From Neckera pumila (lineage: Eukaryota > Streptophyta > Bryopsida > Hypnales > Neckeraceae), in NCBI GenBank assembly GCA_963969595.1, contig OZ018410.1, forward strand, positions 25,424,913 to 25,488,912: a stretch of 64,000 nt of DNA, read 5' to 3'. The notes under the pieces were generated by a model, which saw only the letters and a program-made list of their open reading frames with translations, was not told where the DNA came from and did not search any database. Both the position numbers and the translations under genes were made by a program. Of the stretch, positions 13,236 through 59,500 are shown piece by piece. Position 1 is the stretch's first letter; every line of letters starts with the position of its first letter.

Positions 13236-13265
13236 CTCCGCGAAACACCCTAAATCCTAAACTAG

Positions 13266-33700: not shown

Positions 33701-33843
33701 ATGGGATTAGTGTCGACGTCTGACCCAAGGAATTCCTCCATGTCAACATCCTTCTCTTCAAATTCTAGGAATCCCTGTACATTCAACATTCCAAGAGTAC
33801 TGACAATTATTTGACATGGACTTTCAAATTGGTATGCTGCCAT
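30761..33843 (-). CDS. Intact transposase-like protein, 975 aa, two exons (DUF7869-like)
   Basis: Exon 1 (32803-33843, 347 codons) and exon 2 (30761-32647) join in phase 0 through a GAG|GTAAGA donor and a TTTGCAG acceptor. The result is an uninterrupted 975-aa protein. A Cys cluster (CLQRCCDREC) lies in the N-terminal half and a second possible metal site (ARCSICDNL) just after the junction. The core resembles the RNase H-like integrase fold of large plant and oomycete transposase-like proteins that I know under DUF7869. Its motifs are TGMFAHGHGDDKYAHYSLD, then HIQMDNSWRENKNR (about residue 570), then VGHTHDDINALFGRWS (about residue 610); the acidic residues in these are candidate catalytic ones. 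The family label is from memory. An intact frame in a region of decayed elements suggests recent activity or domestication. Confidence 0.75.
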
Positions 33844-34837: not shown

Positions 34838-35250
34838 TTAACCCCTAAATGCCCTAAGCTTGTGTGCGGCTTCCTGGAATTTTCTTTCAACTGAACAAAA
34901 TGCCAACATTTTGATAAGTTGTATTAATTTTTTGGAAACTGTAATTGTAGAAATTAAAACTGAATATGTTTAGAGATTTCATAGAAAAAGAAAGCAGTAT
35001 TACTTAAGGAGTTAAAGATCATAAGGCTTGACCATGAGTGTGCTAAAACTGTAGAAATCATTCAATCTTCATTACACAATTCAAAACTAAGAAGTTGGTG
35101 GTTTATAAAATATGACCTTAAAGGGCAAAACTTGAATAATCCCATTGAATTGATGGCTTCTTAAAATATACTCAAGTATCTCGAATAAATCTAGTTATAA
35201 TTTCAGAAAATTTTAATAGATGCCATCTTCATATTTTGGCCAAGGAGTTT
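34838..35250. mobile_element. Left part of a TTAA MITE of the 629-bp type
   Basis: TTAA-CCCCTAAATGCCC at 34838 matches the left end of the complete member at 56879. Similarity continues through AACAAAATGCCAACATTTTG to about 35150, where TTGATGGCTTCTTAAAAT parallels the other copy. The right terminus is not recognisable. Confidence 0.6.
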
Positions 35251-38034: not shown

Positions 38035-38225
38035 CTTCATCATTACCGTGTGACATGTACATTAAAAAATCCAAAGGTATCTATTGGAAGTGAAGCTACT
38101 GTAGACGATCTCCCCTTTCCACACAAATTTCTGAGAACAAATAATTGTTGTTTTGTCCTACACCAAACGAACGACTCTGTCATTCATCGACCAGAAAATG
38201 GCTGCCGCGACGTTTATAGGTTAAA
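38035..38225. repeat. Diverged copy of the dispersed repeat seen at 7195
   Basis: It shares the order of blocks CATCATTACC-like, AAAATCCAAAGG, GAAGCTACTGTAGA, CTCCCCTTT, TTTTGTCCTACA and GTCATTCATCG with the copies at 7195-7640 and 16545-16975. Confidence 0.5.
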
Positions 38226-38376
38226 AACTAGCACAAACGCAATTGTTAGAACAGTAGGCTATTTAGAATATGCCCCTCCTAGTACCGACTTAAACAAGGG
38301 GTCATCGTAAATGCAATATATTCTGTAAATACTATGCGTGAACAAGAATGAACAGAGTGTGAAATGATTAGACTAC

Positions 38377-38409
38377 CTGATCGCCATCGGACTCGCTAGA
38401 AGAAGCCAT
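38377..38409 (-). CDS. Possible first coding exon (11 codons)
   Basis: ATG at 38409 opens a frame reading MASSSESDGDQ that ends at a GTAGTC donor-like site. The composition resembles the start of an acidic nuclear protein. No downstream exon was found before the repeat at 38225, so support is weak. Confidence 0.2.
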
Positions 38410-38685
38410 GCGGATTTAGGGGGAATGAAGGACGCCAGACTGCCAAGCGGTTTCTCCGTCCAAAAAGAATTTAAAGCCTTGACAGCCGATGTTACTGGCA
38501 AACTGAATGTGCAAGAGATGTGAGGGCTAACTCCTTGCAGTTACTTCCCAGCTTCCCATTATACCGAGCTTCCTGCATTAGATGACAAGGCAAGCAATGT
38601 GAAAACCGTAATGAAAACAATTAAATTGATTGGCCAAGCATCAACAATGCAAGGAAATGCGATTACAATGTGTGGTAAGAACATA

Positions 38686-39999
38686 GTCTAGGCGGGACGT
38701 CCTAGACACTGCGACACGGACGAGCCGGTCGATGACAAGAACGTGCCGGACTGAGTGAACATTAGGGTGGCCACCCTAAACCATGCGCTGAAGGACCCCA
38801 TTCATGACGACAAGGTGACGTAATGAGAACAATTTAGGGCGGGACGTCCTAGACACTGCGACACGGACGAGCCGGTCCATGACAGGAACGTGCCAGACTG
38901 AGTAAACATTAGGGTGGCCACCCTAAACCATGCGCTGAAGGACCCCATTCATGACGACAAGGTGACGTAATGAGAACAATTTAGGGCGGGACGTCCTAGA
39001 CACTGCGACACGGACGAGCCGGTCCATGACAGGAACGTGCCAGACTGAGTAAACATTAGGGTGGCCACCCTAAACCATGCGCTGAAGGACCTTGTTCATG
39101 ACGACAAGGTGACGTACCAAGAAGAGTTTAGGGCGGGACGCCCTAGACACTGCGACACGGACGAGCCGGTCCATGATAAGAACGTGCCGGACTGATTGAA
39201 CATTAGGGTGGCCACCCTAAACCATGCGCTGAAGGACCCCGTTCATGACGACAAGGTGACGTAACGAGAAGAGTTTAGGGCGGGACGTCCTAGACACTGC
39301 GACACGGAGGAGCCGGTCCATGACAAGAACGTGCCGGACTGATTGAACATTAGGGTGGCCACCCTAAACCATGCGCTGAAGGACCCCGTTCATGACGACA
39401 AGGTGACGTATTGAGAAGAGTTCAGGGCGGGACGTCCTAGACACTGCGACACGGAGGAGCCGGTCCATGACAAGAACGTGCCGGACTGATTGAACATTAG
39501 GGTGGCCACCCTAAACCATGCGCTGAAGGACCCCGTTCATGACGACAAGGTGACGTAACGAGAAGAGTTCAGGGCGGGACGTCCTAGACATTGCGACACG
39601 GAGGAGCTGGTCCATGACAAGAACGTGCCGGACTGATTGAACATTAGGGTGGCCACCCTAAACCATGCGCTGAAGGACCCCGTTCATGACGACAAGGTGA
39701 CGTAACGAGAAGAGTTTAGGGCGGGACGTCCTAGACACTGCGACACGGACGAGTCGGTCCATGACAGGAACATGCTGAACCGCGTGTAGTTTAAGGCGGG
39801 CGGCCTAAACCTGCTGGAAGGACTGGGTTCGTGACAAGAGCGTGCCTTAACGAATACAGTTTAGGGAGGGCACCCTAAACCGTCACAAAGAAGACCGCGT
39901 CGACGACATGAACGTGCCGAAACAAGTTTAGGGAGACGTGTCTGAACCAGTCGTCCGCGACGTATTGATCACAAATCAGAGTGCCCGCTCTAAATTGTC
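38686..39999. repeat. 147-bp satellite array with paired palindromes
   Basis: A reference hexamer GGCGGG starts at 38691, 38838, 38985, 39132, 39279, 39426, 39573 and 39720, an exact spacing of 147 bp at every step with only scattered substitutions. Each unit contains two palindromes. P1 is TTAGGGCGGGACGTCCTA, for example 38834-38851. P2 is a perfect one, TTAGGGTGGCCACCCTAA, for example 38762-38779 and 38909-38926. P1 to P2 is 75 bp and P2 to the next P1 is 72 bp, so the unit is a dimer of two related half-units that also share a GGACC/GGTCC ... CATGAC(G)ACAA tail. After about 39766 the array continues as diverged single half-units, with palindromes at 39789-39810, 39859-39880, 39926-39947 and 39974-39995. 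P2 contains an inverted pair of telo-box-like ACCCTAA motifs. Confidence 0.92.
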
Positions 40000-41100
40000 T
40001 GAAGAAGACTCTGTGCCGACCACATTTGATTTCTCATACTGATTTCTATGAACGTAAGACCCATTATGAAGCTGGTTTCAGACTATGAAAGTGCTTTGCA
40101 TACACAAGAATTAAATCGTTCTATTCAATGGATCCAAGAATACCAGTAATAATGCAGCTAGTTTCTGTCAAGAGATTTGGACTTTAGTATGTTGAAGTAG
40201 AGCAATCAAGGACGTCACGAAAATTCAGAAACTAACAAATTCAGCAATTCAGTGACAATAAGCAAACTATGAATTCAATTGTTCAGCCCCTGGACAAGAT
40301 GATTTATGCATCCTGAATATTTCGACAAGGATGCTTATGTGAATACTGAATTCAGTCAAAAAGATCTTACAAACCATTGAATTTCAAGTCAATGAACTCC
40401 ATCATATTCTGGACTGCACCAATTTTCAAAGAGACAGCTACATTGTGCAATCAAGTGCACTGAATCCAAGTGAGTGACGGCCCCGACTGACGGAGGAATG
40501 TTGGAAGTTCAAAATTTCGGGAGTGACTCCAATCAAAAAGCAATGCGGATAAACCACAATATGTACAAACCACAATAGGAATGAAACTCACAATGAAATG
40601 AACTGCTAAGCAATTCTGCCCATACTTACATGATGCAGTCGATGCGCACACCAGGTCTTCAATCTCCGGAACTGAGGACGTCTCCACCGAAACTAAAAGA
40701 CGTCTCCACCAAAGGCAGCCTTTCCTTCCCGTACGCAAAACAGCAAGCCGATCAAAAACACCAACATCACAAGCGATAAGAATCCGTCCAACTTTGAAAT
40801 CAAAACAAGAAACGCAAGGAACCATGGAAAAAAGCAGCGGTTTTGGGTTAGTGTACAGTAAAGTTATGGTACCGGAAGTGGAAGTGGAAGAATTAATCTT
40901 CGGCGCGGCACTGCGGTGGTCTACAACAACCTTTCACTTCGTCAAACGGGATGCACTGCGAGCAAGGCACAAGGTCATAGCGACAGAGGCAACGGACTCT
41001 ACAAAGAAAGCAAACTTCGGCCACAGTTGCATTCCACTTCGTGAAGGCGGTTTAGGTTGGGTCATTTAATGCGCACAGGAATTGCGGCAGCCATTGTCAG
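40000..41100. other. Spacer right of the satellite; possible minus-strand first exon
   Basis: A minus-strand frame at 40451-40825 begins with an ATG and has a good GTAAGT donor near 40633 after VPEIEDLVCASTA. This could be a first coding exon (about 64 codons), but I found no second exon and recognise no family. The plus-strand ORF 40794-41069 overlaps it and looks random. Confidence 0.3.
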
Positions 41101-41109
41101 GCACTTCCT

Positions 41110-41480
41110 TGTTAGAAAAAAAAAAAAATTTGTTTTGGACTTCTTTAAACACGTGGACTACAACCTCGCAATCCACCTTTCTTTTTAATTTTAAAAATAC
41201 CAAAAAAATTGTTATGAAGGGGATTTTAAAAAAAAAAAAAAAAAAAAAAAAATGAAGATAAAAAAAAAATTCCATGAAAAAAAAATTGTCCATGAATGGA
41301 ATATATATATAAAAATAAAAAAAAATAAAAAATTAGAACGGAATATTGTCTATGAACGGAATACAAAAAAATATAAAATAAAAAAATAAAAATAAAAAAA
41401 TAAAAATAAAAAAATAAAAATAAAAAAATTAAAAATTAAAAAAAAAATATAAAATTAAAAAAAATATATAAATATATACT
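41110..41480. repeat. A-rich low-complexity tract
   Basis: Long runs of A interrupted by T (AAAAATAAAAATAAAA types) without a clear unit. The minus-strand ORF that overlaps it is poly-Phe and not a gene. Confidence 0.85.
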
Positions 41481-43511
41481 TTATTTTTTGTAGACTTTCA
41501 ACTTATAACTTCAATATAAAAAATTTGAAATTCAAAGTCTGTAGTGTCAAAAAAATCAGCAATTGGCGGTCAAAGTCATATGAAATTGCTGGTCAGTGTT
41601 CAAAATAAAATTTTATTTTCAACTTTCACTGCTAAATAATATCTTCCAATCTATACGGTCAAACTTCATGAAATTTTTACCACATCATCTTTGACAAGTG
41701 AAGTATGAAATCCTATGGTTAGATTCTAAATTGTTTTTTTCTTGTGTTCTTGGATGAACACAGCCTAAATGGCAGTTTTGGGGGGTTTTCCACATGAAAA
41801 TGGCCTTGGGAATTTAGGGGTTCAGCTATTTTTGAAGTGTACTTCCGCATCTTTAATCAACCTCATATTTCTGGGGTGACCAATTTTATAGATGTGATAT
41901 GCAAAATGAGAATTGAAAGATTTCCATAGTTGGAATACTCTCACGATTGAACATTATCATTTTTCGATTCATAAATTATATTGTTGTATTTTCTTTTCAT
42001 ATGTGGTCCTAACATGTCTAGTTTGAATTTGTACGGTCACGATCGAAAAGAAATTCGCACAACTTATGAAAATGTTGTTTTAGGTTCAAATAAAGTAAGA
42101 GGGTTTTAGGGTTTAGGGTTTAGGGTTTTAGGGTTCAAATAAAGTAAGAGGGTGCAATTTGGGAAAAATTTAAAACGTCGAGAACATACAGAACCCATAG
42201 GATCTCTAACGTGTCCAGTTCGGATTTGTATGGTTACAATAAAAAAAAAAATCATTGATACAACTTATCAAAATGTTGGCATTTTGTTCCATTTAGAACA
42301 AATTCCAGGAAGCGCCAAACAGGCCTTTGTCAATTTGGGCTTCAAAAACATTTGTACAGTAAGACCTCTCTAACTTGATGGGTCCGGGACTGCCTAACAA
42401 GATTGCTTTAGAGAGAGTAATTGCTTTAGAAAGAATTTGCACTACACAAGAAGTTGCCCAAAGGATACATGAGGAAAACGACCTGCTGGAACTAATTGAT
42501 TTTTCTTTTCTGGACAAGGCCGAGATGCACTACTATTCCTAGGGAAGGTGTCATTTTGTTCTACAGCTTATTTTAATCCCCAAGTCGGGACCACCCGGCT
42601 CTATTTGTTTGAAGAGGTCTTAGGGTGTTCAGAGGATCAATTTTTGCAGGTGTTAGTGTAGCTCTAATGTTCGATTTCAAATTCATGTATCAAGAATACA
42701 AAAACAATTGTGATGATTCCACTATATTCAAAGATATTGGGAAAAATATACAAATACGCTAAAGAATAAGTTCCCTGAATTGGCGCATATATGAGTTTTA
42801 AATAACCATAATGAAGGGTTTCGGAAGAGAAGGGAAAAAAGAGTAAAGCAAAATAGGAGAAGAAAACAACAGAAGGCAGAAAAGATTTTTAAAATGTAGG
42901 GTGCTATACTAAATGGAAAATAAAAAGTATTTCTAACAATACTTTGCTTATAGTAAATTACAAATATAATAGGTAAACAACCTCCCATAAAGCAGGCCCC
43001 GATCTCAGGTGTATACTAAACTTCTAAGCTAATGACTCCATTGAGGCGAGTGCATAATTTATAAAATCTATTTTTCAAGCACACTTATAACATGAAGACC
43101 AATTTAATCTTTGTATATACGTAATACCGTTGTGATTACACCTACTCTATCAGTGTAAATATATCGTACATTGCATTTGGACAATTACAAATCTCCAAAA
43201 GGTGCTACAACTTCTTCACATGTTTATTTTTCAATTATCCCGTAAATGACAAACATGCGTTTGTTGGCTGTCCCGTGTGGATCATTTACTACATTTTTAA
43301 AATGACATGTGGCCAAAAGTAGGGAAGCTCTTCTTTTGAAAAGATAAAAAAGTATAGAGTATTTACAACTAAAGTAGGAGACATGCAAAGGGTGAAATGT
43401 ATTCCAAGTAAGTTAATAGGCCTACTAATGTGATCCTTTCACTTTTTGTACATCTAATTTAGGAACTGCTCATTTGGGTCTTCATTTTCACCATTTACTA
43501 CTGTTTGTATG
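41481..43511. other. AT-rich spacer with MITE fragments
   Basis: GCCTTGGGAATTTAGGGG ending near 41821 matches the right terminus of the 629-bp MITE type. Inverted fragments of the same family (TATCAAAATGTTGGCATTTT) lie at about 42265-42300. A short interstitial telomeric run, GGGTTTAGGGTTTAGGG, lies at about 42107-42137. No gene seen. Confidence 0.5.
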
Positions 43512-43577
43512 TGGGTTTAGGGTTTAGGGTTTAGGATTTAGGGTTTAAAGGTTTAGGGTTTAGGGTTTAGGGTTTTT
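43512..43577. repeat. Interstitial telomeric repeat (TTTAGGG)n
   Basis: About nine copies of GGGTTTA/TTTAGGG with two variants (GGATTTA and AAAGG). This is the plant-type telomere unit on an internal site. Confidence 0.9.
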
Positions 43578-46100
43578 GGCTTATCTTCATAAGATGATGC
43601 TAAATCCATTTAATATTTTCTGGCCTACCAAGAACATTGTCATTTTCAATGATTCATAAACAAAGACTTTTAATATAAAAAAAATAATCTTTATAATAGA
43701 TCTACCTTTCTTCAATGTATTATTCTTATAAGTGATTTTCTAGGGTACACACGTGTTAATAATTTTTAGTATTTTAAAATCTTTAGAAATTTACAAATAA
43801 ATATTCAAATAGGAAAAAAAAACAAATTCACATTGTCAAGCATGCACAAGGAATTCAGGAAAACAAAAGTGTCTACTAAAAAAATTCAATGCAAAATATG
43901 AAGATACTTGTAAAACCATCCAATGTACCTTGCAAAAAAAATTGGGTGGAAGAAATAGGGGGACAGAAGGGGAAAAGAATCGCTGTGACATGGGTAGTAT
44001 AAGTAATGATAGGGTACCATAATATAAGTAATTTTGCCGAATTATATAATTATACGGGCCCCTTTTTTAAGACCTTGGAGATAAATAGACCCCCAAAAAA
44101 TACCTCCTTGCCGCACGGGGGTATAAGACATAGAAAGAGTGATGCACCCAAGCTGGGTGTATAGAAATTCATTTTCCAAATGAATATTTTAAGTTTTGTG
44201 GTCAACAGAATATTAGAATTAATTATGTTTTGTGAGTTCAAAAAACAATTGCTACATTTGGAGACACCTACAAGTGTATGGTATATTCTTACTATATGTT
44301 CAAACAGTTATTGGATGGTATGTCATTTTCTCGGAGGTGCAGTAACCGATGTCGATATTTGAATACATGCAAGTACACTAGAAGAAAATTCAAGTTTTCT
44401 GTTGTTTAGGTCTCGTTGATCTAATGAATTTTTGAGAAAATTTCTTTGATTTCAACAGATTTCTATCAAAAATTGACCAGATCATCGCAACCAAAACAAC
44501 AAAATAACTAAATTTGACACTACTGACAAATAAAAGTTTTTTCAAAAAATATTTAAATTAAGAATTATAATCTCATTTGGTATACTGTACTATTCATAGA
44601 ATAACATTGCATGTCTTCTAATAACTACAGAATGTTGCATAATAGGATCAAGTAGAAAAAATGATAAACCTAGAATACCCCCATAGATATGAAATTAGGA
44701 TGACAAGTATCCAATTTTGGCTGGCCTTATTAGTTGGTCCAGCTATAAGTATAGTAATTGTATAATAATTTGAGGAACGTTGAAGCAGCTGTTGTAGCCG
44801 GGTGATGAATTGAATTGTAGCAAGGTGTATTTTTTTGCCTTTTTAGTTTCATATGATTGTGTAGTAGGAAGGTGCATTTACAATTCTTTCAATTTTATAT
44901 GAATGTGTTGTAGGAAGCTGTATATTCCTTTCTCTTTTAGTTCATATATGAAGTTGTTAGTTCAAAAATAGAATGTTGCATGAGGAAATTGTATTTGTGA
45001 ATGTGTTTATGTTCTTGTTTCATTCCATGTTCAAGATTCCATATGAACATTGAATGCATGTATACTGAGTACTCCTGCTTGAGAGTTGGTAACTTTGTAG
45101 ATTTCAGAGACACAGTCCATGAATCCTGAAGCGCAAATTCAAATTCTCTAATTCTAAATAATGAATAGGACAAAAACAAAATAGAGCTTCAATTTCCTAA
45201 TTCTAAGTAGTCAATAGGCCCTAGGAAAATGGAGTTTGAAATTCCCTAAGTTGGAGTACCAAGTAGGCCTTAAAACAATGGAAACTTCAAATTTTCTAAA
45301 TCTGAGTCGTGAGTAGGCCTAAAAAAAGAAGGGAGCTTGAAATTCCCTAAGCTTGAAGTACTGAGTACACTAAAATAATGTAGTAGTAACTTATTTTTTA
45401 GTAAATATACCCTACAACATATTCCAGCCAAATAGGAATTATAATTAATAAAAATGTGAAATTGTTTTTTAAGAAATTTAGTATAATTAATAAAAAATTC
45501 AATATGGTTTTATAGATTTATGTATACGTGTAAATTTTTGAATAATTCCATTTGATGTATGAGATGAAAATGAAGTTTTATTCTAGTTTGCAAGTACTTA
45601 GGGATTCCTTCCAAAAAAAAATGAAAGTCCTTCATTTAACTAAATTTTTAATATTCTTTGAAAAAAATAAAGGCATACAATTTACAATGAACCTTACAAC
45701 ATTAAAACATGGGGATTGACATTTTTCAATTCCATAATTATATTCCGTAATTTAGTGTTGTCAATCATTCTCTACTTTCTATCTATGATGTATTTTTTTC
45801 GTATATGTTTTGAAATTCCAAATGATTCAAAATTTTCAAGCATGTCATGAACTTGAATACAAACCATTAAATTTGAGGAGTAACCACAATTTTGGACATT
45901 GTTCATTTAAATGTGATCTTTTCAATTGCAGTTGCCCGATTCTTCGCGCTTCCGAAAAAAGGATTCTTGTCAAATCAAATGCTTTTATCTTGCAATCTAC
46001 AAGGTGGAAAATTCAAATTTTTTTTCTACATATTCTCAAACTATCTTACTACAAGATCCTACGGTTACAAATGTTCGAAAGAAATAACTTTCTAGAATTT
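43578..46100. other. AT-rich spacer, no gene recognised
   Basis: Only short chance ORFs. The stretch 45700-46080 shares phrases with the nested element near 15420-15560 (ATTCCATAATTA, TATGTTTTGAAATTCCAAATGAT-like), so it is likely MITE-derived. Confidence 0.5.
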
Positions 46101-47070
46101 GGTTTAGGGCTTCGCGCGGCCATAGGGCAAAATCTAGTTCGATGCAGGTCCGGCACGAGCATAGGGCAAACTCTAGGTTCGGTGGAGCTTTGGTGCAGCT
46201 CCGGTTCGAAGTCGTCCGCCTCGGTTGATCGTCATCTCTGCGCGCCAGGGTTTCCTGTGTTTTCTCTTGTTCTTCTTTTCTCGCTGCTCCGTTGTTGTTG
46301 CTTTTGCATTTCGGTTTTCCTTGTTTTCGTGTCTTCACTTTGCTGCTGTCATTGTGGCGCGTGCTTTTGTGTGGTGCCGGAGTTCCCTGCGGCGGTGGCG
46401 GAGTTTGTGGCGGTGTCATCTATTGTAGACAAGGTAAGGTTCACTTTTCATTTTCAGGTAAAACCGTCATTTCGAGGTTTTGGCTTCATGTTATTCAGCT
46501 CTGGTTAGTTACGTTTATTGTGCTGGGTTTTAGGGTTTTGTGCGGTGGCAGTTCTTGTTTCAGTCTTGCAATGTCAATGTCAATCTGCTTCACTGGAATT
46601 TCCCGACTTCTCTGCAGATTGGCTTTAGTTTCAGTAGAATGTCTTAGTGTTTTGCCTTGTTTCTATTACAGTTTTCTGCGAAACAGAAGAGCTAGTTTCA
46701 GTACGTTTACATGTTCAGTGTGTTTGCATTATAGATCACAGTGATCTATTCTTATTTCTAGGGTTTCTTCTTATTTGTACTGTTGTTATTGTAAAGTTAG
46801 TTTGTTTGGAGTTGAGAATTGACTTCGTATCATTCTCATTCAGGTTGTCCAAGACATAGTCGTCGGGGTTTTGAAGGTCATCTTTCTAATTGGAGTGATT
46901 CATTAAGCTTGGAAGGCCCGGCATTGGAAGTTGGACAAGCTCGGCGGTACCTGCGTCAACAGTAATCATCCCGGGAATCAGGTACTACAAGTCTCTATAC
47001 TCGTATTTCCGAATTTCAGAAAAGTAGAACATCTTGCTGGTATAGAACAGAAACTCTAGCCGAGGAGGTT
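46101..47070 (+). promoter_or_regulatory. GC-richer leader region of the palindrome-associated gene
   Basis: Composition changes abruptly near 46100 from AT-rich spacer to mixed sequence with pyrimidine-rich tracts (TTTCTCTTGTTCTTCTTTTC near 46257). A good donor, GACAAG|GTAAGG, lies at 46432/46433. An acceptor-like GTGTGCACAG lies just before the ATG at 48299. This suggests a 5' untranslated exon and a long leader intron containing the palindrome array. The ORFs here (45810-46508 and 46292-46744) look like Cys/Phe-rich noise. Confidence 0.3.
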
Positions 47071-48273
47071 GTCTAGAACGGTCGCTCTAAACAGTTCCTG
47101 CCGAGGAGGATGTTTAGAACGGCCGTCCTAAACAACTAAGGTCGTAAAAGATGTTCAGAGCGGCCGCTCTAAACACCTTCAAGGGGTGCAACGGCCAGTA
47201 TCAGAGCGGCCGCTCTGAACATCTGAGAAAAGGGCAACAAAAATCGGACAATAGAACCGGAGTCCCGCTCCAAAGCTAGAGGTAGAGTAGAGAGCCCAGA
47301 GTAGTTCAGGCCTAGAACAGCCGCTCGAAACGACTTGGATGAGAAGAAAGCAGAAGAGACAAAAACGCCAAACCCAAAGCAGAATAGATAGAGAACGCAA
47401 AGGTAGAGTACGCGAAACCAGTTGTGTCTAGAGGTACAGATGAAATCCAGAACCCTAAACTTCAGAACGACCCCCCCTAAACCAGATGAAAGCAGCCAAT
47501 CGGTTCTCGAGCAGATATGGTGATCCCCACGAAAACACAGGCGAAAAAATTAGAATATGCGGAACTTAAAAACACCCGCTTGAGAAGAAATACATCAAGA
47601 CGTCCGCTCTAAAACAAATTATGAATGGTGTCCTCAGATTTAAGAAAAGTCAAACAAGGCTGTCAGATTTAGAGAACAAATTACCAGGGAGAATCAACGC
47701 ATAAGTATCTGAGAACCTATAGCTCGACAGTCCGAGGGCAAACCGCTAGAAAAGTAGGCCACCACCAAAATGATATACCACGGATGTCTGTAGGTTCAAA
47801 ACGGCCGGTCTAAACAGTGGTCACATCAAGATTGATTGTGCACTGTAGCATGAACAGAATACGGAAACAAGTCTAACTCAGTCGGCTTAAGCTAACACTA
47901 GATACGCAAGTACAAAGTAGTCAGGGTGGATGAATATGAGTAGACATACAATGCAGTAAGACGAATAGTGAAGGCCACGTTCACATGCGACAAGTGAAGA
48001 TCAGACCGGCCGGTCTGAACCCTACAGAAGTAGAGATCGGACTCTAGATTCATAGCTGTACTGATGCAAGCTGCTTAGCGCGTCATGGCTAGGGCGGGAC
48101 ACATTCGGGTGGACCAAATTAAATGTTCAATAATAACCCGTGATCGACAACACCATGAGGAGTAATATTGGGGTCACAAAATACATCAGAGCGCGCGGTC
48201 TAAACATCCGAGGACTTGTTGCTAAATTGTGTTTGGCATACAGCATATCCAGTTTAGACCGCGCGGTCTAATG
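47071..48273. promoter_or_regulatory. Array of eleven palindromic 18-22 nt motifs upstream of the ParB-like gene
   Basis: Sites start at 47071, 47112, 47153, 47199, 47310, 47460, 47593, 47794, 47999, 48184 and 48252. The common form is GTTYAGAnCGG joined to CCGnTCTRAAC. Perfect 18-nt palindromes are TCAGAGCGGCCGCTCTGA (47201-47218), TCAGACCGGCCGGTCTGA (48001-48018) and TTAGACCGCGCGGTCTAA (48254-48271). The first three sites are spaced exactly 41 bp apart. The outer arms T[TC]AG...CT[AG]A are constant, while the centres vary yet stay self-complementary. The last site ends 26 bp before the presumed start codon. Clustered dyads suggest binding sites for a dimeric protein, a role not shown by sequence alone. 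Confidence 0.8.
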
Positions 48274-50204
48274 TGCAAAAGTTCGTGTGCACAGTGAAAT
48301 GGAGTCATTCTTGGAGAGCAAGCCACCACTCACGGGCTACTTGAGAAGAATATCGTCAGATCATATTCACGAGTCCTGGAAACCGCACATGGAAGATAAA
48401 GTCCCTCTGTAGTTCATGTCGTCCAGGGCCCTGTGGACTGTCGAGATGGATTTTGTGAACGACTTGCCCGTGTTCAGTCTGGCTCTTGGATTCACTAGAA
48501 ATGGCGGTCCTAGGTGGAAGTCATTCAAGCAGATAATAGTCATTAACATCAGTGTCATGCAAGAGGCCGTCCTCATAGACGTTGTAAATTCCACAAACAA
48601 TGTCCTCGGAGTCATCGTAATTCGTGTTGAAGATCGCATGACGATGTGCACCGAACACCTAGTAAAGAATCGTGACAAGGTGCCCCAAATATATAGGGAA
48701 CTTATGCTAGATATTCATGATAGATGCCAAGCCCATGCTAGTGACTTTAGGGAAACCGCGAAAACGATTAGCATGTACCTTCAGAACGCCAGTTCTATAC
48801 ACACGGCTACGCTAACACAGAAGATGGTCTCCCAGGAATCTCATCATCGAGAAATGGACGCTCAGTCGAACCCGATGAAGAAGGCCAAGAAAACTGCCGC
48901 CTCAGGCTCCGGAGCGGTCCCCCGCTCCTGGCCACCACCCTCAACAACCCTCACCGGGGAGGCCGCCGCTGCTGTTCCGAGCCCGCCTCGGAACGTCACA
49001 ACGGGGACGGCTGCCCATGTCCCAGCAGGGCAAACCCGAAGGACGGCTGCATCCGCTCCAAGTCGGCTTAGACCAAACCCAGCAAGCCAAGCGCCGGTCC
49101 AGAACGAGCAACAGCAATCCGCAGTCGGCCATGCTGCACCACGGCAGCAATAGACTCCAGAGCGGAAGACGGCGGCACCCGAACCATCGAACAGAAGTCA
49201 GACGGGTGAGAAAGCGGGGGACGCTCTCCCCAAGGAGAGGCGCCCTAATGTCAAAGTCAAGACAAAGAAACGCAAGCCCGCACAAGCTGACGCAGGTCCA
49301 TCCTCGCCTGCGGAAGGCGAGGATGCGAACAGGGGGACCAGGCGACAGCGGGTCAACCCACCGAGTTCAGAGACGTCCGAAGGAGCCCCGAGCATGTTGT
49401 CGCAAAGCTCATTACCGGAGTACCCGGAAATAACCGAAGAGCAAGCTCGGTCCGTCGCGTACAAGAAGAAGGACAGGAAATGGGTTGACAACCCGAATAC
49501 GGTTCCGTTCAATCCAACGGACATCCCTGAGAAGCTGATAGTGCCGGTGGATTTCAAACCGCAAGCTAAGCGCGGGCAGGAATCCGAAATGAGGAGGCGC
49601 TTGAAGGCCGAGGCCCAGGCCAACAAGAAGTTCAAGGAGAAATCGCGTTATATGTACATCTTCGGTCGTGGCAATTACTTTGAGTTGAACTTGGAGGACA
49701 TGGTGAACGCAGACGAGAAGTCGGGCATAATCTATAGGCCGCTTCAGGATGGTGGAGTGGTGAAAATTCTCGACCGAATCGTGAAGCTGAATTTCACGAA
49801 ACAAATCCTGACAGTCATGCCCGACACGCCGGTCAGGCCAACCTGCTGGAAGGACTGCGTCGATGCCGGGAAATTCAAGATCATCAACAGCCAACACACC
49901 TGGAAGGCCGCTAGGAAGATCACTTCGGGGGAGTTCGCCGTCGACGACGATAACATATCCAAGACCATGCAGAATTGGATATGCGAGATCGTATGGTCCG
50001 AGAACAAGGACCACCTTCACGCGTTGTCATCAAAGTGCAACGACGAGAATACGAGCATCCCGTTCCTGACGTCTGTGTCGGCAACCATCGTTCACTGCCG
50101 GCACCTCTGGGTGGCCGCAGGAAAACCGTCGATATTCCGGAAGAATGCGAATCCGGAAGACCAGGACGAACTCAAGAGGTTCCAGGTACTATGACAAGCC
50201 AACA

Positions 50205-50226
50205 CTCTAGAGCGGACGCTCTGATG
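50205..50226. promoter_or_regulatory. Palindromic motif in first coding intron
   Basis: CTCTAGAGCGGACGCTCT begins here, about 20 bases after the exon 1 donor. It has the same arms as the 47-kb family. Confidence 0.7.
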
Positions 50227-50367
50227 TTCACGTCTTGTAGTTATAATCATGCAATACATTGTGGATGAACTAGTTAATAATACTGCCAGAGATTAGTGGA
50301 CTAGCTCTACATGGTTCAAACTGAATGTCCCTCACCACATATCGCTAGTGTCTGCGGTAGGAGGTAG

Positions 50368-50389
50368 GATCAGAACGGCCGTCCTAAAC
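50368..50389. promoter_or_regulatory. Second palindromic motif in the same intron
   Basis: The core TCAGAACGGCCGTCCTAA (50370-50387) closely matches the site at 47112 and lies 46 bases before the exon 2 start. Confidence 0.75.
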
Positions 50390-52514
50390 CTGTGTGTTAC
50401 CTGCCCATTTACGTATGTCTTTTGTCCATGTGCAGGTGTTCCGGGAGAAGGTGGAGCAGAGTTTTGATGCAACCTTCAGTCCAAAGAACACCAGTGGACG
50501 AAAAAGCCCTATGAGTTCGAGAAGGGGGGGGAGCGCAAGCTCTTCATGGCGTCGGACGACACATGGGCGATCTGGAAGAGTGTCTTCGACTCAAAGGATT
50601 CCGGCGATCTGCACGACCTCGATTCGGACTGCCCTTTCAAGGAAAAGGTAGACGCGGATGGGGATTGCAAGCCATACAAGCCAATCTCGTGGTCCCAAAA
50701 TCAGTTGAGGGCATTGTCCGGATTGGACGATTCCGCGGTCGGTGAGTTGGGACGCAAAATCTTGGACGCCCCACCCAAAGTGTACCTGAGGAAGCCGTAT
50801 TGCTGGAACACGGCCCTCTCACTCGGTCAGTGGTGCACGAACAAGAAGCACAAGACAGTACTCATCAAGGAGTTGGTAGCAAGGGCCAAGCGATTGGGAA
50901 TTCTTGAGGCCGTGGACGTCTTCGACAAGGACAGTGGTGACCTTGCCCTAGAGAACTGGCGGAATCTGAAGGCGGTCCTCGGTATAAACGGCTTCCACAT
51001 GGAGGTTCTTCAAAAACTTGGTGATTCCTGGCTGAAGGTGGAATGCAAGTCGGGGGCGAAGAAGGAACCGAAACCGAATGACCTCGTCGCGGCCCTAGAC
51101 AGAGTCATGCAAAACAACGAGAGGTCGACCAGTGTCGGTCAATACTCACGCGCCTCGATTTGCAGGTGGAGTCAACCAACGATGAATTTTGACCCTCAAC
51201 TCTATCTCTACCGTAATGAATACTGGTCGACCTGCTCTCCCGGACCCGCAAGCTAGAAGTACGCCGAGGTCGGGATCATGGACCTCCGCCAATTTCCCAA
51301 GGTGGGGAAAATGGAGATCAACTCTGCGTACAAGTATGTGCTGAAGCACGTGGACAAGGTCACGAACAAGAATATGTCCAAGCTCGTGCACACGTGGATG
51401 GTCATCCTAAACAAGAGGAGATTGGCCACAGTGCAGAACATGCTGAAGGACGTGTTGCCGGGACACAAACTCACGCGCAACTGCGTTTACAAGCGCAGCA
51501 AGGGCGAACCGCTCGTGAAGGACAAGAGCGAAGACATCGTCATGTACCTGCAGAGATACTCCAAGAGTTTCATGAACTCGAAGCTCGTGGACCAGGAGGG
51601 CATCGTTCCAAAACTTTCGGCGGATGAAGAGGAGCCGTTGGAGACGGACGACAAGAGCTACAAAACCGCGGATGTCTGTCGCCATGACTATCCGATGATG
51701 TTGTCCGATTTTGAGCTCCGGTATGAGACGTACCTCCGCTTCATCGACAAGTTCTGCAGGGACCAAGGCACGGTCATGCTCTTGTTTGCCGGGGCCAAGC
51801 CTATCTCTGCCTACACGGTAAGATAGTGACCTGCTCTTTCTATTATCCCACTTATCGTATCCTACCAAGTTGGTGAAGTCTAAGTACCGCATTATCTAAC
51901 AACGTCTTGGCTTCTGACTGCAGATGTTGTGCCGTAGCTCCGTGTCCTTCATGCTCCCATCCGAAAAAGGTCTTTTCCGACACAGAGTTCACAATCGGAT
52001 TGGTTCCATGATGTGGCCCGACTTTTTGATCCCTCCTCCATACGCCCTGAGGTATGTTTACGACAGGAACATGCCTCCGATGACGTTGGAGGAAGAACTG
52101 ATTCGGACAGCCGAGGAAGTGGAGGCCAACGCCGCCTGGAATATCGTCGACGAATTTGCTGACGACGACAACGCCGGCGACGTAGCCGGTGATGAACCTG
52201 TCGTGGGAGCCGAGTCCGAAGGTGGGGACGACGATGACGTACCCAAGAGCGACGACGACGACGACAGCGAGGATGAGGATGAGGATGAGGACGACCCAAG
52301 AGACCGCGAACCTAGCGACACGGAGTCAGATGACTTGGTGGAGCAGTCATAGAACCCGGCGGCCAGCGAGACGACGGTCACAAACGGTCTTGCTAGTGAG
52401 CGCGGTGTGGTGACACCTCCGGTCCCCCGATTCCATCGTCAGGGTCAAGACGATCGTCCTCAGCGTGTTGCTCCCGGCGGGAGTCTTGCACAAGCATACA
52501 CTCCATTGAGGCGG

Positions 52515-52536
52515 GATCAGGGCGGCCGCTCTGAAG
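52515..52536. repeat. Palindromic motif inside coding sequence
   Basis: The core TCAGGGCGGCCGCTCTGA (52517-52534) is in frame and encodes DQGGRSE. It is one of three members within the last exon. Confidence 0.75.
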
Positions 52537-52646
52537 ACCTCGACACTCCGTCGCCCCGCTCTTCGTCTCCGCGGGACCAAGACAGGAACGAGGATGACGA
52601 GGCCTTGGATCCTCCATCGCCAAGGCCCCTATTTCCGTCTGTGCAG

Positions 52647-52668
52647 GATCAGAGCGTCCATTCCGAAG
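52647..52668. repeat. Diverged palindromic motif inside coding sequence
   Basis: The core TCAGAGCGTCCATTCCGA (52649-52666) lies in the same frame and encodes DQSVHSE. The left half is conserved and the right half has decayed. Confidence 0.55.
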
Positions 52669-52832
52669 GTGTTCACCCTCCTGCTCCCCGACCGACGTCT
52701 CCACCTGGGCGGGGTGGGGGCGTCGCATCTGATCATGTCGTCCCTCTCACCCTAACCTACCACGAGCCATCTCACGATGTGGATATCGTTATGACCCTTC
52801 CTTCCACCATCCCTGCCACTCCGTCTCAAGTG

Positions 52833-52854
52833 GATCAGAACGCACGTTCTGATC
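52833..52854. repeat. Nearly perfect palindromic motif inside coding sequence
   Basis: GATCAGAACGCACGTTCTGA with the following TC is a palindrome apart from the two central bases. It encodes DQNARSD in the reading frame. Confidence 0.75.
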
Positions 52855-54218
52855 AGGGCGGATCGTCTTCACAGGCCGCGCCTCCACCTTCATCGAATGC
52901 ACCAGCTGCAGGAGCTACCACTTCTGCTGGAGCCGAATCGGCCACACCTGAGGCACCCCTCAGGTTGCAACTTGAAGACATGCAGCAGCAAGTGGACGAC
53001 ATGAAGTCGCTTATGACTGCTGACGAGTTGCTGGAGTTCATCACGGTTCGTGTCGAGGTGGACTCCGTGCCCAATCCGCCGAGCAATAACTCCTTGGCAG
53101 ATAGGGTGAAGGAGACGCGGGCCCGTCTTGATGGAGTGATCCTGGCTCCCGTGGGCGGTAAGGAGAAGGCCAAGATGGTTACAATTGCCCAAGTCCAGAT
53201 CGACACCCTCGTCTCGTAGCTTCCTGCACCCTCTCCCGAGGAGAGAATATGCATCGACTTTATCCGGAAGATGAGGCGAGATCTGGCCGCGGAGAAAGCC
53301 AAGGAGAAGGCCGAGGTTGAAGTCATCGTCATAGACGATGATGAGGACGATGAAAGTGACGTTGAGCTTCAAGCGCGTCTGAATCGAGCTGCGGCAACCA
53401 GGGCGGAGTACAAGGAGACGGTGGACGCCATAAGGCATTCCAGGGCCGCCGCTCCTCCGTCTGAACAGGGTGCGGCTGGAGCGACTGAGGGCGGGAGCAG
53501 TAAGGGGAAGGCTCCTTCGGAGGATAAGGCCGATGTGAAGATGGAAGTCTCGCATCTGCAACGTCTGAGCGACCGGTACAGGAAGAAGCAGTCCATGACG
53601 GTGGAGGGGTTCACGAAGACCATCCAGGAGTTGAAGGACAAGGAGGCAGAGGCGGATAGGATAAGGGTAGCGGAGAGGCAAGCTGATGCGGCAAGTAGGG
53701 AGCAAATGGCGGCTGAATTTGCAGAAACCCGCTCTATGCTGCATAATATCCAAGCGTGGTTGAAGACCATGAAGGGAGAAACAGCGACGCCGGCTCCCAG
53801 TCCAACCCCTGCGAGCGAGTTGCAGAACGCGTCCGGGGTGTCGACGACAAACTCGCAGTCGGCAACCCAGACCGCGGCCACGGGTCTCTTGAGGATGTCC
53901 TTGCCCAGCCCAGCAATTGTACCGGTGAATGGTTTTCTCGACCCCGAGTTCGATGACCTCGCCCTCAGTCAATTTCCTTTCGTTCCTTCCTTTGAACCCG
54001 TGCATCGTTTGAGCTTCAACGACGATGACCCCTACGCCCTGGATGTGGAACTTGGAGATGTCGAGGTCTCCTTCACTAACTTGACTGCGGAATATGATCC
54101 AATGCTGCAGGCCCCGCTCGGTCCGAGGCAGACTTCGGTGGCGGAAGCGGACCCTGCCCAAGTGGACACGCTAGCCGCAGATCAAGAGGATCCCACGGTG
54201 GGTAACCCCTCCACATAG

Positions 54219-54540
54219 CCCCCTTAGTTGTAGATAGGCGTACGCTATGTGAGGGAGTTATGCCAGGCCGATCAATGTTCGTCCTAGAGAGGGGGCAGAG
54301 GCGTGGGCCGTAGTGCTAGCGGGTGTCATTGCATGTTAGACGTAGTCGGGACAAACCTTCACCCACATTTGTACAAAATACTTCAGATTGTAAACATTGT
54401 AAACTATTTTGAATATATTGATTTTTTTTCATTAAAATCATGTGCGCTCGATAGGCGTTGTGTACATTGTTACTCAGTGCACTTGTCTTTCCTGTTGCAT
54501 TTGATGTGCCTTGTAGTCACCCTCGTATAATGTGCGTTCA
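54219..54540. other. Spacer between the two genes of the 48-56 kb block
   Basis: It turns AT-rich near 54360, with a possible polyadenylation context (TTTTTTTTCATTAAAATCATG), so the first gene probably ends here. A decayed palindrome-like site lies at 54270-54291 (right half CGTCCTAGAG). A splice acceptor-like GCGTTCAG ends at 54540. Confidence 0.4.
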
Positions 54541-56352
54541 GGGTGACGAGGCTCTTCTGGTCGGCCATGAGGCCGCTGTGCCGTCACATGGCACGGATCC
54601 AACACTCCATTGCGCTGCGCCCCCTTGCCAACAACATAACCCAATCGTCGCCCATACTTCTGTGGATTTGGTCCCTCCGGTCTCCTTGGACGTGCCCGCG
54701 CCCAATGCCGTGGCTGTCCTCCCTCCAAACATGGAAGAGGTTGCTCCCGCGTCGAATGAATTCCTCCCTCCCGTGCAGCATGATTTAGCAACTCCCAATG
54801 CTGTGCCAATACTTCCTGGAATTGACTTGGAACTCCCAACTTTGGTTGCGGACGAGGAGGTTGCACCCGTCCGAATGGAAATGGAACCAACCCCAGCAAC
54901 GGAGGTCGGCCTTCCTCTGGCGGCAAACTTGGCGGCAGACGTCGTAACAAAGGTAACTCACAATCCAAGTCTCTCGTAATTGCCTGCTCGATTTGGTAGC
55001 ACGGTCCTTTCATCTTGGATTTGATCCTTCTAGGAGGACTTCATTCCTGCCATTTCCGGAGTTGCGTTTTATGTCGTCGTCAACTTCCTCTACCGTTTTT
55101 ATAAATCGTACTTAGAGTACGGGGATCGCCTACGCAGGCACCGGTACCGATACCCGCGAAGACCCCCGCAGAAGCTGTCGTTAGGGACTACTTGATTGTT
55201 CTGGAGGTAGAAGGGGTCCTGTGTCGTATTAAGCACGAGGGCCACGTTGTGCCCGAATCCATGCCCGCGGGTGCTACGCCAACCCAACAAGATTTTCATC
55301 CCACGAGACGTCACGTGTTCGGCGAATATACACTGTACTATCGTCCCGGTATGCGCCCCTTCTTGAAGGGCTTGACCTCCAAATTTAGATTAGCCATCTA
55401 GACGAGGCTGTCGGCCGCCGTCGCAAAGCTGGTGGTGAATTTTCTCTTCCAGGGCAGTGAGACAGATAGGGTCACAATCCTGGCGTTGGAGGACTGCATG
55501 ACAATCATCCGGTATCGGGCGTGGTGGGAGTGCAGGTGCCCCCCCGTGCCGAGTTTTCCCCGTGATTGGTCCGTGACGAAGTGTGATTATCCCCTTCAAT
55601 TTTGTCCGGCGCACCCCGCGGACACGGACTGCAATACCTCTATCGCGTCCGACACTTTCCTTGAGTTCGCCGACCACCCGGAGGGGCTTTTGCGGCTGAA
55701 AGTTCTGCACAAAGTAGTTTGGGAAGGAAATAGGTTTTCCTCGACCACCATGAGGGCCAATTCTTCCAACACCTTGCTCATTGATAGTTGTCCATTCAGC
55801 AGCATTCTCAACCCATATTACAATGCCATATTCCCAGAGTCGTACACGGGCGGCGAGGAAGATGACTTTCTTCACCGATCGTTGCGCCCGTACCTCTCGG
55901 GTCTGCTTCGATCCCATCGCAGTGTCACCCAATACGTGTCAGAGAACCCACCTCCTTTCGGACAAGACGTGTCGAATGACCATGCCATATTTTGCTCTGG
56001 ACGGATCCTCTTGAAGCAGACGCTTCTATATCGACAAGTCCAGAAATTAGCTTGGTTTGAAGATCGGTCCCTCGTGTTACGTTATCCAGCCTTCGTCGGA
56101 CAATATTTTAAAGTCGGAACTGATGTTCACCTCCAGAGAAGGGGAAAGTTTCCTCATTTCACATAGAATCTTCATGTGCAGGTCGGGCGACGCGCACGCG
56201 TCTTTGTGAAAGGCGGTCTTGCCGGATCCAAAGTCGCTACCAAACGGGCTAGGCGACAACAGATGCACATGGCGGAAGGAGTGGGCTCCTCCGAAGGCTG
56301 TGCGGTTCCGGAGGATGCAGAAGGGGACGTGACGTCCGCTCGGAATTGTTAA
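54541..56352 (+). pseudogene. FCP1/NIF-type HAD phosphatase-like protein with altered catalytic motif
   Basis: The first exon is 54541-54953 (Pro/Val-rich, donor AAG|GTAACT). The second begins at about 55034 and is open to a TAA at 56352 in one frame from about 55085, except for TAG at 55399 and 56164. The domain resembles plant NLI-interacting-factor HAD phosphatases: YLIVLEVEGVLCRIKHEG (motif I), YYRPGMRPFLKGLTSKFRLAI, LRLKVLHKVVWEGN, NTLLIDSCPFSSILNPYYNA, and LRPYLSGLLRSHRSVTQYVS. In the family, motif I is DxDxT/V; here both Asp are Glu. The DD of the last motif reads DS. The stop at 55399 replaces the Trp normally found after the strand (ATC TAG from ATC TGG). TAG 56164 could instead lie in a small intron, since an acceptor-like TCATGTGCAG follows. 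A hydrophobic segment in another frame at about 55060-55110 hints at a frameshift or splice near the exon start. Confidence 0.65.
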
Positions 56353-56878
56353 ATGAATGTGACTTGTACTACAAGCCCTTACTATAGACTCGGGAACAAC
56401 TTCACTATAGTGTATACATCACCCAATATTATTGGATTGTAGACAATAGTTTACTTCCTTTCACATTCTTTTCCTAAATATAATTCAAGAATACATTCCC
56501 ACAGCATAGCAATAAAAAGTCGACACATATTATGATAGGTCGAGTCTTCTTACTATAGCATTCTTCCCCTCTTGTTGAAATCATAAGTAGAACAAAGGAC
56601 TTCTTCGTTTTATGTTTCCAAGTTGTCCTTCAATGGACCCAAGTGTAATGTATTCACACAAAGAAAATCGCACAACCACTGTTTGAGTTCAAACTATGAT
56701 GTGAAGAAAGTTGGATCCCAAACCTTGTAAATCCAAATTTTTAAGTACTAGTAAAGTATCCATTTTGGGAGTTTCAGATGTCTTTTCGAGTTCGCAGTCT
56801 TTGTTGTCGCTCGGGAATAAATTCACTTCATTGCACGAAACTCCATTTACCAATGATTCCACCCATCCGTCCATTACC
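56353..56878. other. 3' flank of the HAD-like gene, no gene
   Basis: AT-rich unique sequence up to the MITE. No terminal repeat matching the 46-kb side was found. Confidence 0.45.
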
Positions 56879-57507
56879 TTAACCCCTAAATGCCCAAGGC
56901 CTATTTTGGGCTTTCTGGAATTTGCTCAAAATTGAACAAAATGCCAACATTTTGATAAGTTGTATCAATTTTGTTTCAATTGTAACCGTACAAATTCAAA
57001 ATGGACATGCTAGACATCTCATAGAAAAAGAAAACACAACAATACCACTTATGGAGTGAAAGATTCTAATGCTTGACCATGAGGGTGCTGAAACTGCAAA
57101 ATTCTTTCAACCCTCTTTGCACAAATAAAATTTAAAAAATTGGTGACCAAAAAAATATGAGGTTAAAGGGCCTAACTTGTATAACCCCGATCAATTTACG
57201 GCTTCTTAAAATCTACTCTACAATTTTTTAAAATGAAACTTGAATGTGATTTTTTCTCGAAGATCTAGTGCATTTTAGACTCATTTCCAAGAGCTCTCAA
57301 CACTACGGGAAGTGAAGATTGCAATTGATACCCTTCTTCAAAAAGTTGAATAGAAAAATCACTGTCATTTATTTTTAAGATCGGATTTTTGATGCTAAAA
57401 TTAGACTCCAAGAAGAATTTTCTAGAAATAGCAACTTCATTAGGTTTTATTTAGCTTCAAAGTTCTGCAAACACCAGAAATGGGTGCCTTGGGCATTTAG
57501 GGGTTAA
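56879..57507. mobile_element. Complete 629-bp TTAA MITE with 18-bp perfect TIRs
   Basis: The left end is TTAA followed by CCCCTAAATGCCCAAGGC. The right end is the exact inverse, GCCTTGGGCATTTAGGGG followed by TTAA. There is no ORF. It is the best-preserved member of the family in the window and can serve as the reference for the pieces at 34838, 41821 and 42265. Confidence 0.9.
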
Positions 57508-59500
57508 TCTATGAGCGCCCCGTAGGCCAGAATGTCGCCTTTTAGTTTTCGAAGATTTAACAGTTTGACCATTATGATCTTTTCATTGCTACCATCTAAG
57601 GGTCTAAATCCTTCCCTTGGAGCTTTAGACGTACATCTACCACCAATTAAAAATCTATGCAATTTTTTTATATTTTAGCTATTTTGATGGCACAACAAAC
57701 CCTACAGGTTTCCAAAGTTATTATTGAGTCTTGGGAAATCATTGTCTTCTTTCATTTTTGGAGGGACAACAATACAGGGCACACCAATTTACGCATACAT
57801 TGTTGACTATTTGCTCTGTTTGTTAGCTTCAAATTTCTTGGACCGTGTTGCATACCCGGTTTGCATGTTGGATACTACTATCAAAAAAACTGTCAACAAG
57901 CAAAGGCGTCCGTGCTTTCTTTCATGGATTTAGGATCCATGTCTAAATCTTATTGAATTTCAAAGTTAATTTTAAATTGAAGAAGTAGAAATTCCTTTTT
58001 TCATTTCAACAAGGGCAACGGCGTAGGACGCACTATCGTACACATAGGTCAATTCTCGCAATTACCTAAAAATAGTTTCCTTTCTATAGTTTGACAACTC
58101 GATAGCCAGATTTGGATTTTTTCAATTTCAGCATTGAAGCTTTTTCCAGACATTCCTAATTTTGGATTGATTTTGTCCATTCATGCATTCCCCCCTTCCC
58201 TCTTTTCCAAGGATTTTTGATAACTTATTTTCTGATGTTCTTAATTGTTATGAGTCACGTTTTTCTGATTTTCAAGAATAACTGAGGAATTTTAAAAATG
58301 CTCAGCATTTTCCAAATTTTGCGAAGTTACTTACAAAACTGACCTATACGTACAAAGCAACGCTCCAACTATGCAATTGCCAAATTGAATTCCTCCCATG
58401 ACATTCACTGAAGCCCGAATTTCCACCACGTGCGACATGAACGTCCCACATGGCGCTCCTTTATCCCACATTGAGCCCTTAGACAAAATGGTTAATGCTA
58501 TGTTCAACTCATGCATGTGTCCATGTTGCCCCTCAAAAGCCCGAATCACCACGTTTTTAACATTCATTTTCCTACCTTGTGCTCATCTTTCCACTAGTTT
58601 TCGGCAGGCCTCCTAAACCAGCTTTCCCGCCATTTTAAAGGAATACCGCCATTTTAACGAAATATGCCATCAATATAGCTTGTATCTGGTACTCGTCTAC
58701 GACACTGTAAGAGCCCAAAGTCTTGAGCATCGTCTAAGTCCCGAGATCTTTGAAAATATAAACGCCTGTCTTCCGTTACATCATTGTACAAACGAACGAA
58801 GTTCTCATTAGTTCGCAACGTCACTGATTTGAACTGGTAGGGACTTCTGGAAGATCCGGGAAACCCCATTGTGTTACAGTATAATCAAGTCCTTCCGGCC
58901 AGGGAGCGCCTTGGAAAGCTTTGGAAGGCTTCTCAGAATGCTCTCCCGGCCGTGCCTAAAAATTCGCTCTTACAATGAAGCTAGAGAATTGACAAGCTCC
59001 TATCTACCGACAAGCCAACCTAGTGTTACCGATCTCTCAGAGTTCTGCAAACTCCAGACCTTCCACAGTTCGCGCTCCCATCAAGCTCCAGGCGGCCAAC
59101 AGGGAGAGAAAGAGAGAGAAGTAAACTGCAATTGGAAAGAAACGATGGAAGGCCCAGATAGAAGCTCTCGAAAGGACTGATCAACCTTGCATATCCAAAC
59201 AGTATTGGATGAGAAGCAAGCTCACAAGTCTTGGCTTAAGTAGGAGCTGGGCGCGGGTGGGGAGTAGGGGAAGAGCGGGTGGGGAGTGGGGGAGAGCGGG
59301 TGGGAGAGACTCCACCCGGGGAAGAGAACAGGTGGCGAGAATCAACAATTTCAACAATTACTTTAGACATTAGTTCACTTAGTTTATTACCAATTGTCTG
59401 TATAGATGACCCTCAACCTTACTGTATATACAGTACAGTATGTTTCAAGTAGGGAGGAGAAGATTTCAACACATACATACAACATCCATACCTTAAGTTT
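57508..59500. other. Spacer with dispersed-repeat copies
   Basis: 58140-58350 is a diverged copy of 2035-2230. The sequence at 58640-58675 (ATACCGCCATTTTAACGAAA) is the inverted counterpart of 30030-30070 beside the 16-bp minisatellite. The minus-strand ORF 58654-58869 and the plus-strand ORF 58869-59180 have gene-like composition but no motif I recognise. Confidence 0.4.

Follow-up and report, generated by a model that had tools for sequence, protein, structure and literature searches.

Palindromic dyads of a DNA transposon family in Neckera pumila: probable recognition sites

Introduction

The locus studied here raises the question of what a crowd of related palindromes is doing in and around one large gene. 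It lies within 64,000 nucleotides of the genome of the moss Neckera pumila (GCA_963969595.1, contig OZ018410.1, positions 25,424,913 to 25,488,912, forward strand); this whole stretch is called the window, and positions are counted from its first letter. A preliminary description, made from the letters of the window, had noted the palindromes at 47071..52854 and had read their symmetry as maintained, either for binding by a dimer, as cruciform or hairpin, or through a copying mechanism that restores it. The palindromes are termed P dyads below and are treated together with the DNA that carries them, their copies elsewhere in the genome and a companion dyad, D.

Results

Occurrence of the P dyads

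P was described by the 22-base consensus GTTYAGAVCGNNCGBTCTRAAC, and up to 5 mismatches were allowed in the scan of the block. Positions 46001-54000 yielded 17 matches; order-1 Markov sequences, of which 50 were generated, gave 0.5 on average. The match at 48766 overlaps that at 48779 and was left out, which leaves 16 P sites at 47-53 kb and agrees with the earlier count of at least sixteen dyads. The three perfect 18-mers reported before were also recovered, starting at 47201, 48001 and 48254. The looser pattern TYAG-N10-CTRA matched 22 times in the window, with 4.3 matches expected and 22 reached in none of 100 shuffles; ten matches lie within 47071..52854, among them one of a non-P type at 47878. 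Genome-wide, the core TYAGRNCGNNCGNYCTRA was found at 813 places in 339.5 Mb and the reversed-pattern control at 6. These excesses show that the dyads are not due to chance, and composition as their source was ruled out by the shuffles, the Markov sequences and the reversed control.

The sites had been described as lying upstream of, in an intron of and in exons of a large gene. Ten of the 16 precede the open frame at 48413, four are within open frames, and two fall in what is likely an intron, placed at about 50186-50435 from splice signs recognised by eye. None has an assigned strand; the means of detection are given in brackets (pattern, TYAG-N10-CTRA; consensus, 22-base consensus scan; arms, arm comparison).

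47071..47092, P dyad (consensus)
47112..47133, P dyad (pattern, consensus)
47153..47174, P dyad (pattern, consensus)
47199..47220, P dyad, perfect 18-mer starting at 47201 (pattern, consensus, arms)
47310..47331, P dyad (consensus)
47593..47614, P dyad, weak (consensus)
47794..47815, P dyad (consensus)
47999..48020, P dyad, perfect 18-mer starting at 48001 (pattern, consensus, arms)
48184..48205, P dyad (pattern, consensus)
48252..48273, P dyad, perfect 18-mer starting at 48254 (pattern, consensus, arms)
48779..48800, P dyad in open frame (consensus)
50205..50226, P dyad in likely intron (consensus)
50368..50389, P dyad in likely intron (pattern, consensus)
52515..52536, P dyad in open frame (pattern, consensus)
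52647..52668, P dyad in open frame, weak (consensus)
52833..52854, P dyad in open frame (pattern, consensus)

Read by eye, the four P in open frames (48779, 52515, 52647 and 52833) seem to be read in the same codon phase (xxx CAG xxx), and the peptides over the last three are DQGGRSE, DQSVHSE and DQNARSD.

The 28.6-kb element

All 16 P dyads sit inside a DNA transposon, 30030-58670, with the following features.

30030..58670, no strand, DNA transposon, 28.6 kb (copy alignments, ends and flanks read)
30026-30029 and 58671-58674, target duplication CAAT, 4 bp (flanks, with the 4-bp rule from MITEs)
30032..30060, plus strand, left terminal inverted repeat, 29 bp, 0 mismatches
58640..58668, minus strand, right terminal inverted repeat, 29 bp, 0 mismatches
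30764..32662, minus strand, DUF7869 open frame, transposase-like (Pfam match, predicted model)
32755-33897, minus strand, further frame upstream of the DUF7869 frame (open-frame scan)
38691..39775, no strand, 147-bp tandem array, 7.4 copies, TTAGGGTGGCCACCCTAA in each unit (repeat scan)
48413..54215, plus strand, large gene, several open frames, broken in this copy (open-frame and Pfam scan)

The inverted ends at the borders, GGCATATTTCGTTAAAATGGCGGTATTCC, are identical over 29 bp in the window copy. With up to 3 mismatches the terminal repeat was found genome-wide at 307 places in forward and at 296 in reverse orientation, and its control at none. The alignment of copy B with the window runs out to the border on either side (30029 and 58670); that of copy A, which carries inserts, comes close to each of them, and that of copy C extends to the left border only. 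The block 47071..52854 does contain the P dyads, but it proved too narrow, as the further perfect dyad TTAGGGTGGCCACCCTAA occurs seven times in the tandem array outside it; in copies A and C this dyad has one mismatch at its centre. Near the right end, at the distance expected for P (52 bp), a weak P-like word is present at 58599-58616 and agrees with P at 8 of 14 defined bases, a level reached by 1.7% of window positions. Just within the left end lies a 16-bp tandem repeat, TGTGCCATTTTGACGG, with six copies (30062-30157), its copy number varying among element copies, and short arrays of a TTTAGGG-type repeat are found within the transposon at 42100-42135 and 43513-43575.

The predicted model of the DUF7869 frame looks like the core of a DDE transposase and has conserved acidic residues; a Foldseek search against the PDB gave no match at E 0.001 or better. 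The element protein falls in the same family as DUF7869 proteins of the mosses Ceratodon and Physcomitrium (42-46% identity for the named rows), the comparison being one of protein sequence alone. A literature search for DUF7869 by name found nothing. In the large gene, 48413..54215, the Pfam scan of the frames detected no known domain, and folding of the large open frame from six sequences reached a pLDDT of 41.8 and gave no usable model. Matches to HRDC, spectrin, NIF and TPX2 were all under the Pfam cut-offs. A weak NIF-type phosphatase match of this kind, likewise under the cut-off, was observed in the open frame 55402-56163 (plus strand), inside the element.

MITEs of the family

Many of the end places listed were paired about 326 bp apart and represent MITEs with ends GGCAAATTTCG. 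The MITEs of the family have the terminal core of the larger element and, at 138-353 bp, are too short for its genes. Among 49 loci tried, 43 were two-ended, and a 4-bp target duplication, sitting outside two further terminal bases, was exact in 31 of these compared with 1.2 for shuffled partners; at least 3 of the 4 bases were alike in 41 of 43. Two of the loci, L039 and L052, have both flanks in common. A target duplication of 8 bp was dropped as a candidate, since the MITE flanks give 4 bp.

The 326-bp MITEs are laid out as end - P - DDD - P - DDD - P - end, where D is a companion dyad, ATCTARRA-N4-TRTAGAT, that alternates with P. Here P was located at +73, about +165 and about +257 (22 loci tried, 21 with both ends), and MITEs of about 190 bp showed 41-bp D-P units. 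One locus (L067:187-428) carries five tandem 41-bp units, all with CATA as N4, and then a sixth D and P; this array is a recent expansion of the 41-bp unit.

Two ends 100-400 bp apart were present in 52 of 74 loci examined, and P, counted at up to 3 mismatches, was found in 51 and D in 50 of these 52. The one without P, L004, was a mis-paired stretch, and the true L004 MITE has three P. As 44 of the 74 loci had been picked via P or D patterns and 30 via ends, the share holding P is biased upward, while P position itself was not selected on. The P nearest to an end was 50-53 bp away in 45 of 51 cases and 31-40 bp in the other six, a statistic that rests heavily on one 326-bp subfamily. MITEs of 138 and 150 bp have a single P, whose distance is 50-51 bp to the nearer end and 70-81 bp to the farther.

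For contig 1, 43 of the 50 P places listed were examined, and 38 lie in the transposon family (21 in a large copy, 17 at most 450 bp from a TIR-like end) and five do not. In 20 more loci, chosen by the A/A or C/C pattern treated below, a TIR-like end with up to 5 mismatches was found in 19. P belongs to the transposon family, and its usual place in MITEs is at a near-fixed distance from an end. The earlier statement that no plant element of this form was known can be replaced: the dyads belong to a family of transposons that includes MITEs.

Arm matching and changes between copies

Every change in one arm had been said to be matched on the other, with arm position 2 as an example. Only 3 of the 16 P sites are perfect. 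Together they hold 125 matched arm pairs, compared with 118.8 when the same 32 half-sites were paired randomly (p=0.09); arm matching in P is near chance once the half-site motif is given. Position 2/17 was matched at chance level, with 9 matched pairs against 7.8 expected in the 16 sites and 27 against 26.4 in 50 genome places (those listed among the 813, partly copies of one another). The excess was clearest at base pair 6/13. In the 16 sites this pair was matched 10 times against 5.5 (p=0.018, uncorrected for the 11 positions), and in the 50 genome places 30 times against 16.7; with these places reduced to 31 unique forms, themselves not independent, the count was 16 against 9.5. A weak excess was also seen for the centre pair of the 16 sites (10 against 7.4, p=0.08), and slight ones in the 50 genome places at 5/14 (46 against 42.6) and 9/10 (27 against 20.9; p about 0.02 each).

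Changes between copies were predominantly one-armed. Ten sites of the large element, followed through 8 block copies (79 site copies), showed 44 one-arm changes and a single both-arm change, which leaves no pair. In 34 MITEs with three P each (39 tried; second P readable in 27 of the 34, third in 33), 122 one-arm and 8 both-arm changes were counted, 3 of the latter leaving a pair; the sum is 166 against 9. With ratios of 44:1 in the large element and 122:8 in MITEs, symmetry is not being restored, and the proposed copying mechanism is not supported. The first P of the 326-bp MITE even keeps its arms unmatched, an identical unmatched word being present in 14 of 34 copies. Compensatory two-arm changes of the kind that mark a structure-constrained palindrome were not the pattern found, and structural covariation was rejected at all positions except 6/13 by random pairing and between-copy changes. 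What stands of the claim of maintained dyad symmetry is the symmetric binding site, which is the best reading; cruciform or hairpin and general covariation are not supported.

In the 8 block copies, P was present in 79 of 80 possible site copies, the 80th lying beyond the retrieved sequence. Variable columns made up 40 of 220 within P and 243 of 1299 outside P in the large element. In the 34 MITEs, mean diversity was higher in P columns (0.132) than in the remaining columns (0.087), also when CpG columns were left out (0.110 against 0.071). Between copies, P columns show no sign of protection; dead copies need not show constraint.

Half-site types at base 6

Counted by base 6 of the half-sites, the genome holds 249 A/A, 82 C/C, 37 G/G and 29 A/G places, where simple arithmetic from A and G half-sites alone would give about 86 A/G. 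The G/G places are not independent, since 16 of the 37 are in the 8 aligned large copies. The first 50 of the 82 C/C places comprise sites of the large element and dispersed sites with the centre CGCACG or CGTGCG, and a TIR-like end was found in all 14 dispersed C/C loci retrieved with these centres. At base pair 6/13, the only coupled position, a half-site type on one arm tends to be accompanied by its like on the other. This is most naturally read as a dimer site whose halves change jointly where specificity differs, with decay in individual copies affecting a single arm at once.

The companion dyad D

Genome-wide, ATCTAGGANNNNTRTAGAT was found 832 times on one strand and 765 times on the other, and its control not at all. 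In the window, D at up to 2 mismatches gave one match, outside the large element, with 1.2 expected. At 47134, next to a P, lies a D-like word with 4 mismatches, and about 0.1 such words would be expected in the 108 places searched; as a D inside the large element this word is only suggestive.

The least expected result is that the N4 of D is hypervariable among near-identical MITEs. In the 34 MITEs, mean diversity was 0.353 for N4, 0.051 for the D arms and 0.057 for the ends, beside the values for P and the remaining columns given above. In the nearest 6 of 549 MITE pairs, with CpG-type changes masked, the centres differed by 22% and the sequence elsewhere by 1.6%; the ratio of divergence between centre and elsewhere dropped from 14 to 3 as pair distance grew. 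N4 is non-random, with 44 forms in 96 words and CAGG the commonest. We lean slightly towards N4 as a free spacer between constrained D arms, and the bold reading would be a mutation hot spot. In favour of the hot spot, columns taken to be spacer are almost as invariable as the arms and the ends; one N4 common to five tandem units speaks against the hot spot. If mutation and not relaxed selection were responsible, an enzyme of the element might cut or re-join the D centre at movement, so that MITEs carry short random tags, a proposal we regard as doubtful. The D core is 4 bp long, as is the target duplication of the element. If the proposal is true, a plant transposon would harbour a micro-hypervariable system of site-specific kind, and a truly hypermutable D centre would amount to a new kind of site-specific diversification. 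The alternation of D with P spans MITE positions of about 93-256 in L004 and other 326-bp MITEs (e.g. L024-L034).

Discussion

The identical 29-bp inverted ends and the target duplication of fixed length, 4 bp, are those of a class II TIR DNA transposon. Target duplications measure 8 bp in hAT and about 9 bp in VANDAL/Mutator-like elements, and 4 bp in Sola1, Academ and Ginger. The duplication found here differs in length from those of both hAT and VANDAL/Mutator-like elements, and no Mutator-type Pfam match was obtained in the frames scanned, themselves pieces of broken genes. Superfamilies are listed in PMC4455052. For CACTA/EnSpm, PMC2613891 gives a 3-bp target duplication and subterminal repeats that are read by element-encoded TNPA-like proteins differing between elements. 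The present family resembles CACTA/EnSpm as portrayed there in having a short repeated motif near its ends that is kept in non-autonomous copies, and departs from it in its AWGGC ends, 4-bp duplication, DUF7869 protein and a palindromic P that is internal in the large element. By analogy, P may work in this element as TNPA and the subterminal repeats do, yet the element is not CACTA. Searches of the literature for the letters of P and of the TIR core found nothing, and those on subterminal motifs, MITEs and bryophytes held nothing on this transposon family among the matches listed.

We infer from the sequences that P dyads are putative sites of a symmetric DNA-binding protein encoded by the element, and they are probably recognition sites of the DNA transposon family. 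Such a protein would bind P as a symmetric dimer with the half-site TYAGANCG, and P near the ends of MITEs would help to build the cut-and-paste complex of the putative DUF7869 transposase. In the large element, the P cluster at 47.1-48.3 kb, just before the 48.4-kb open frame, and the array at about 38.7-39.9 kb might allow the same protein to act on element genes. Arms that both differ at base 6 would reflect a changed half-site specificity and not structural covariation. The recognition sites are in keeping with the shared ends and copies, the 4-bp duplication, the tie of P to the family and its near-fixed end distance, as well as with the transposase-like model, the coupling at base 6 and the lack of compensation between copies. 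They fit less well with a candidate binder frame (48413..54215) that has neither known domain nor usable model, with P being no better conserved than other columns in the large element and in MITEs, and with its internal position in the large element, where the word at the right end agrees at only 8 of 14 defined bases.

The main rival is a VANC-like factor encoded by the element, anti-silencing or regulatory, that would target P and act on chromatin and expression with no role in cutting of the ends; we consider this rather unlikely. According to PMC5735166 and PMC10398659, VANC motifs build up in the non-coding DNA and the tandem repeats of a large VANDAL element, and P in the large element resembles them in its clusters ahead of the open frame in non-coding DNA, in the likely intron and near the tandem array. 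Unlike the VANC21 motif YAGTATTAY, which comes in single-orientation arrays, P is a dyad; some P lie within open frames, and P is kept in gene-less MITEs at 50-53 bp from an end, both of which argue against such a factor. That P has no present function and consists of inert repeat units, inherited and tandemly duplicated within the family, is unlikely: although P columns are as variable as their surroundings or more so, and 41-bp units multiply in tandem, the position near an end is held over MITE lengths of 138-353 bp, and matched base-6 types exceed random pairing.

Selection on dyad symmetry itself, as cruciform or hairpin with one-arm changes compensated on the other arm, would account for three perfect sites with differing centres, for the matched A/A, C/C and G/G types at base 6 and for the perfect array dyad TTAGGGTGGCCACCCTAA. 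It is contradicted between copies by the 166 one-arm against 9 both-arm changes, and by base 2/17 pairing at chance, and is very improbable. Hardest to credit is repeated entry into the element by tiny palindromes, mobile or copied, with each dyad being one of these. The many dispersed copies in the genome would suit such entry; no empty sites were seen among the block copies, where 79 of 80 site copies are present, and 38 of the 43 places examined are within the transposon family.

The large DNA transposon family described here has a protein family that Pfam lists by number only, and its MITEs are built largely of two alternating dyads, P and D. The near-fixed distance from P to the end is a handle on how transposon ends are read, and dyad types differing on both arms at one base would form a natural series for the change in specificity of a dimeric protein.

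Repeats outside the element

Outside the element, the window contains further repeats (5301-8607, 13265-17816 and 62283-63213). They comprise blocks of 0.2-1 kb that are duplicated and, close to the end of the window, an inverted copy.
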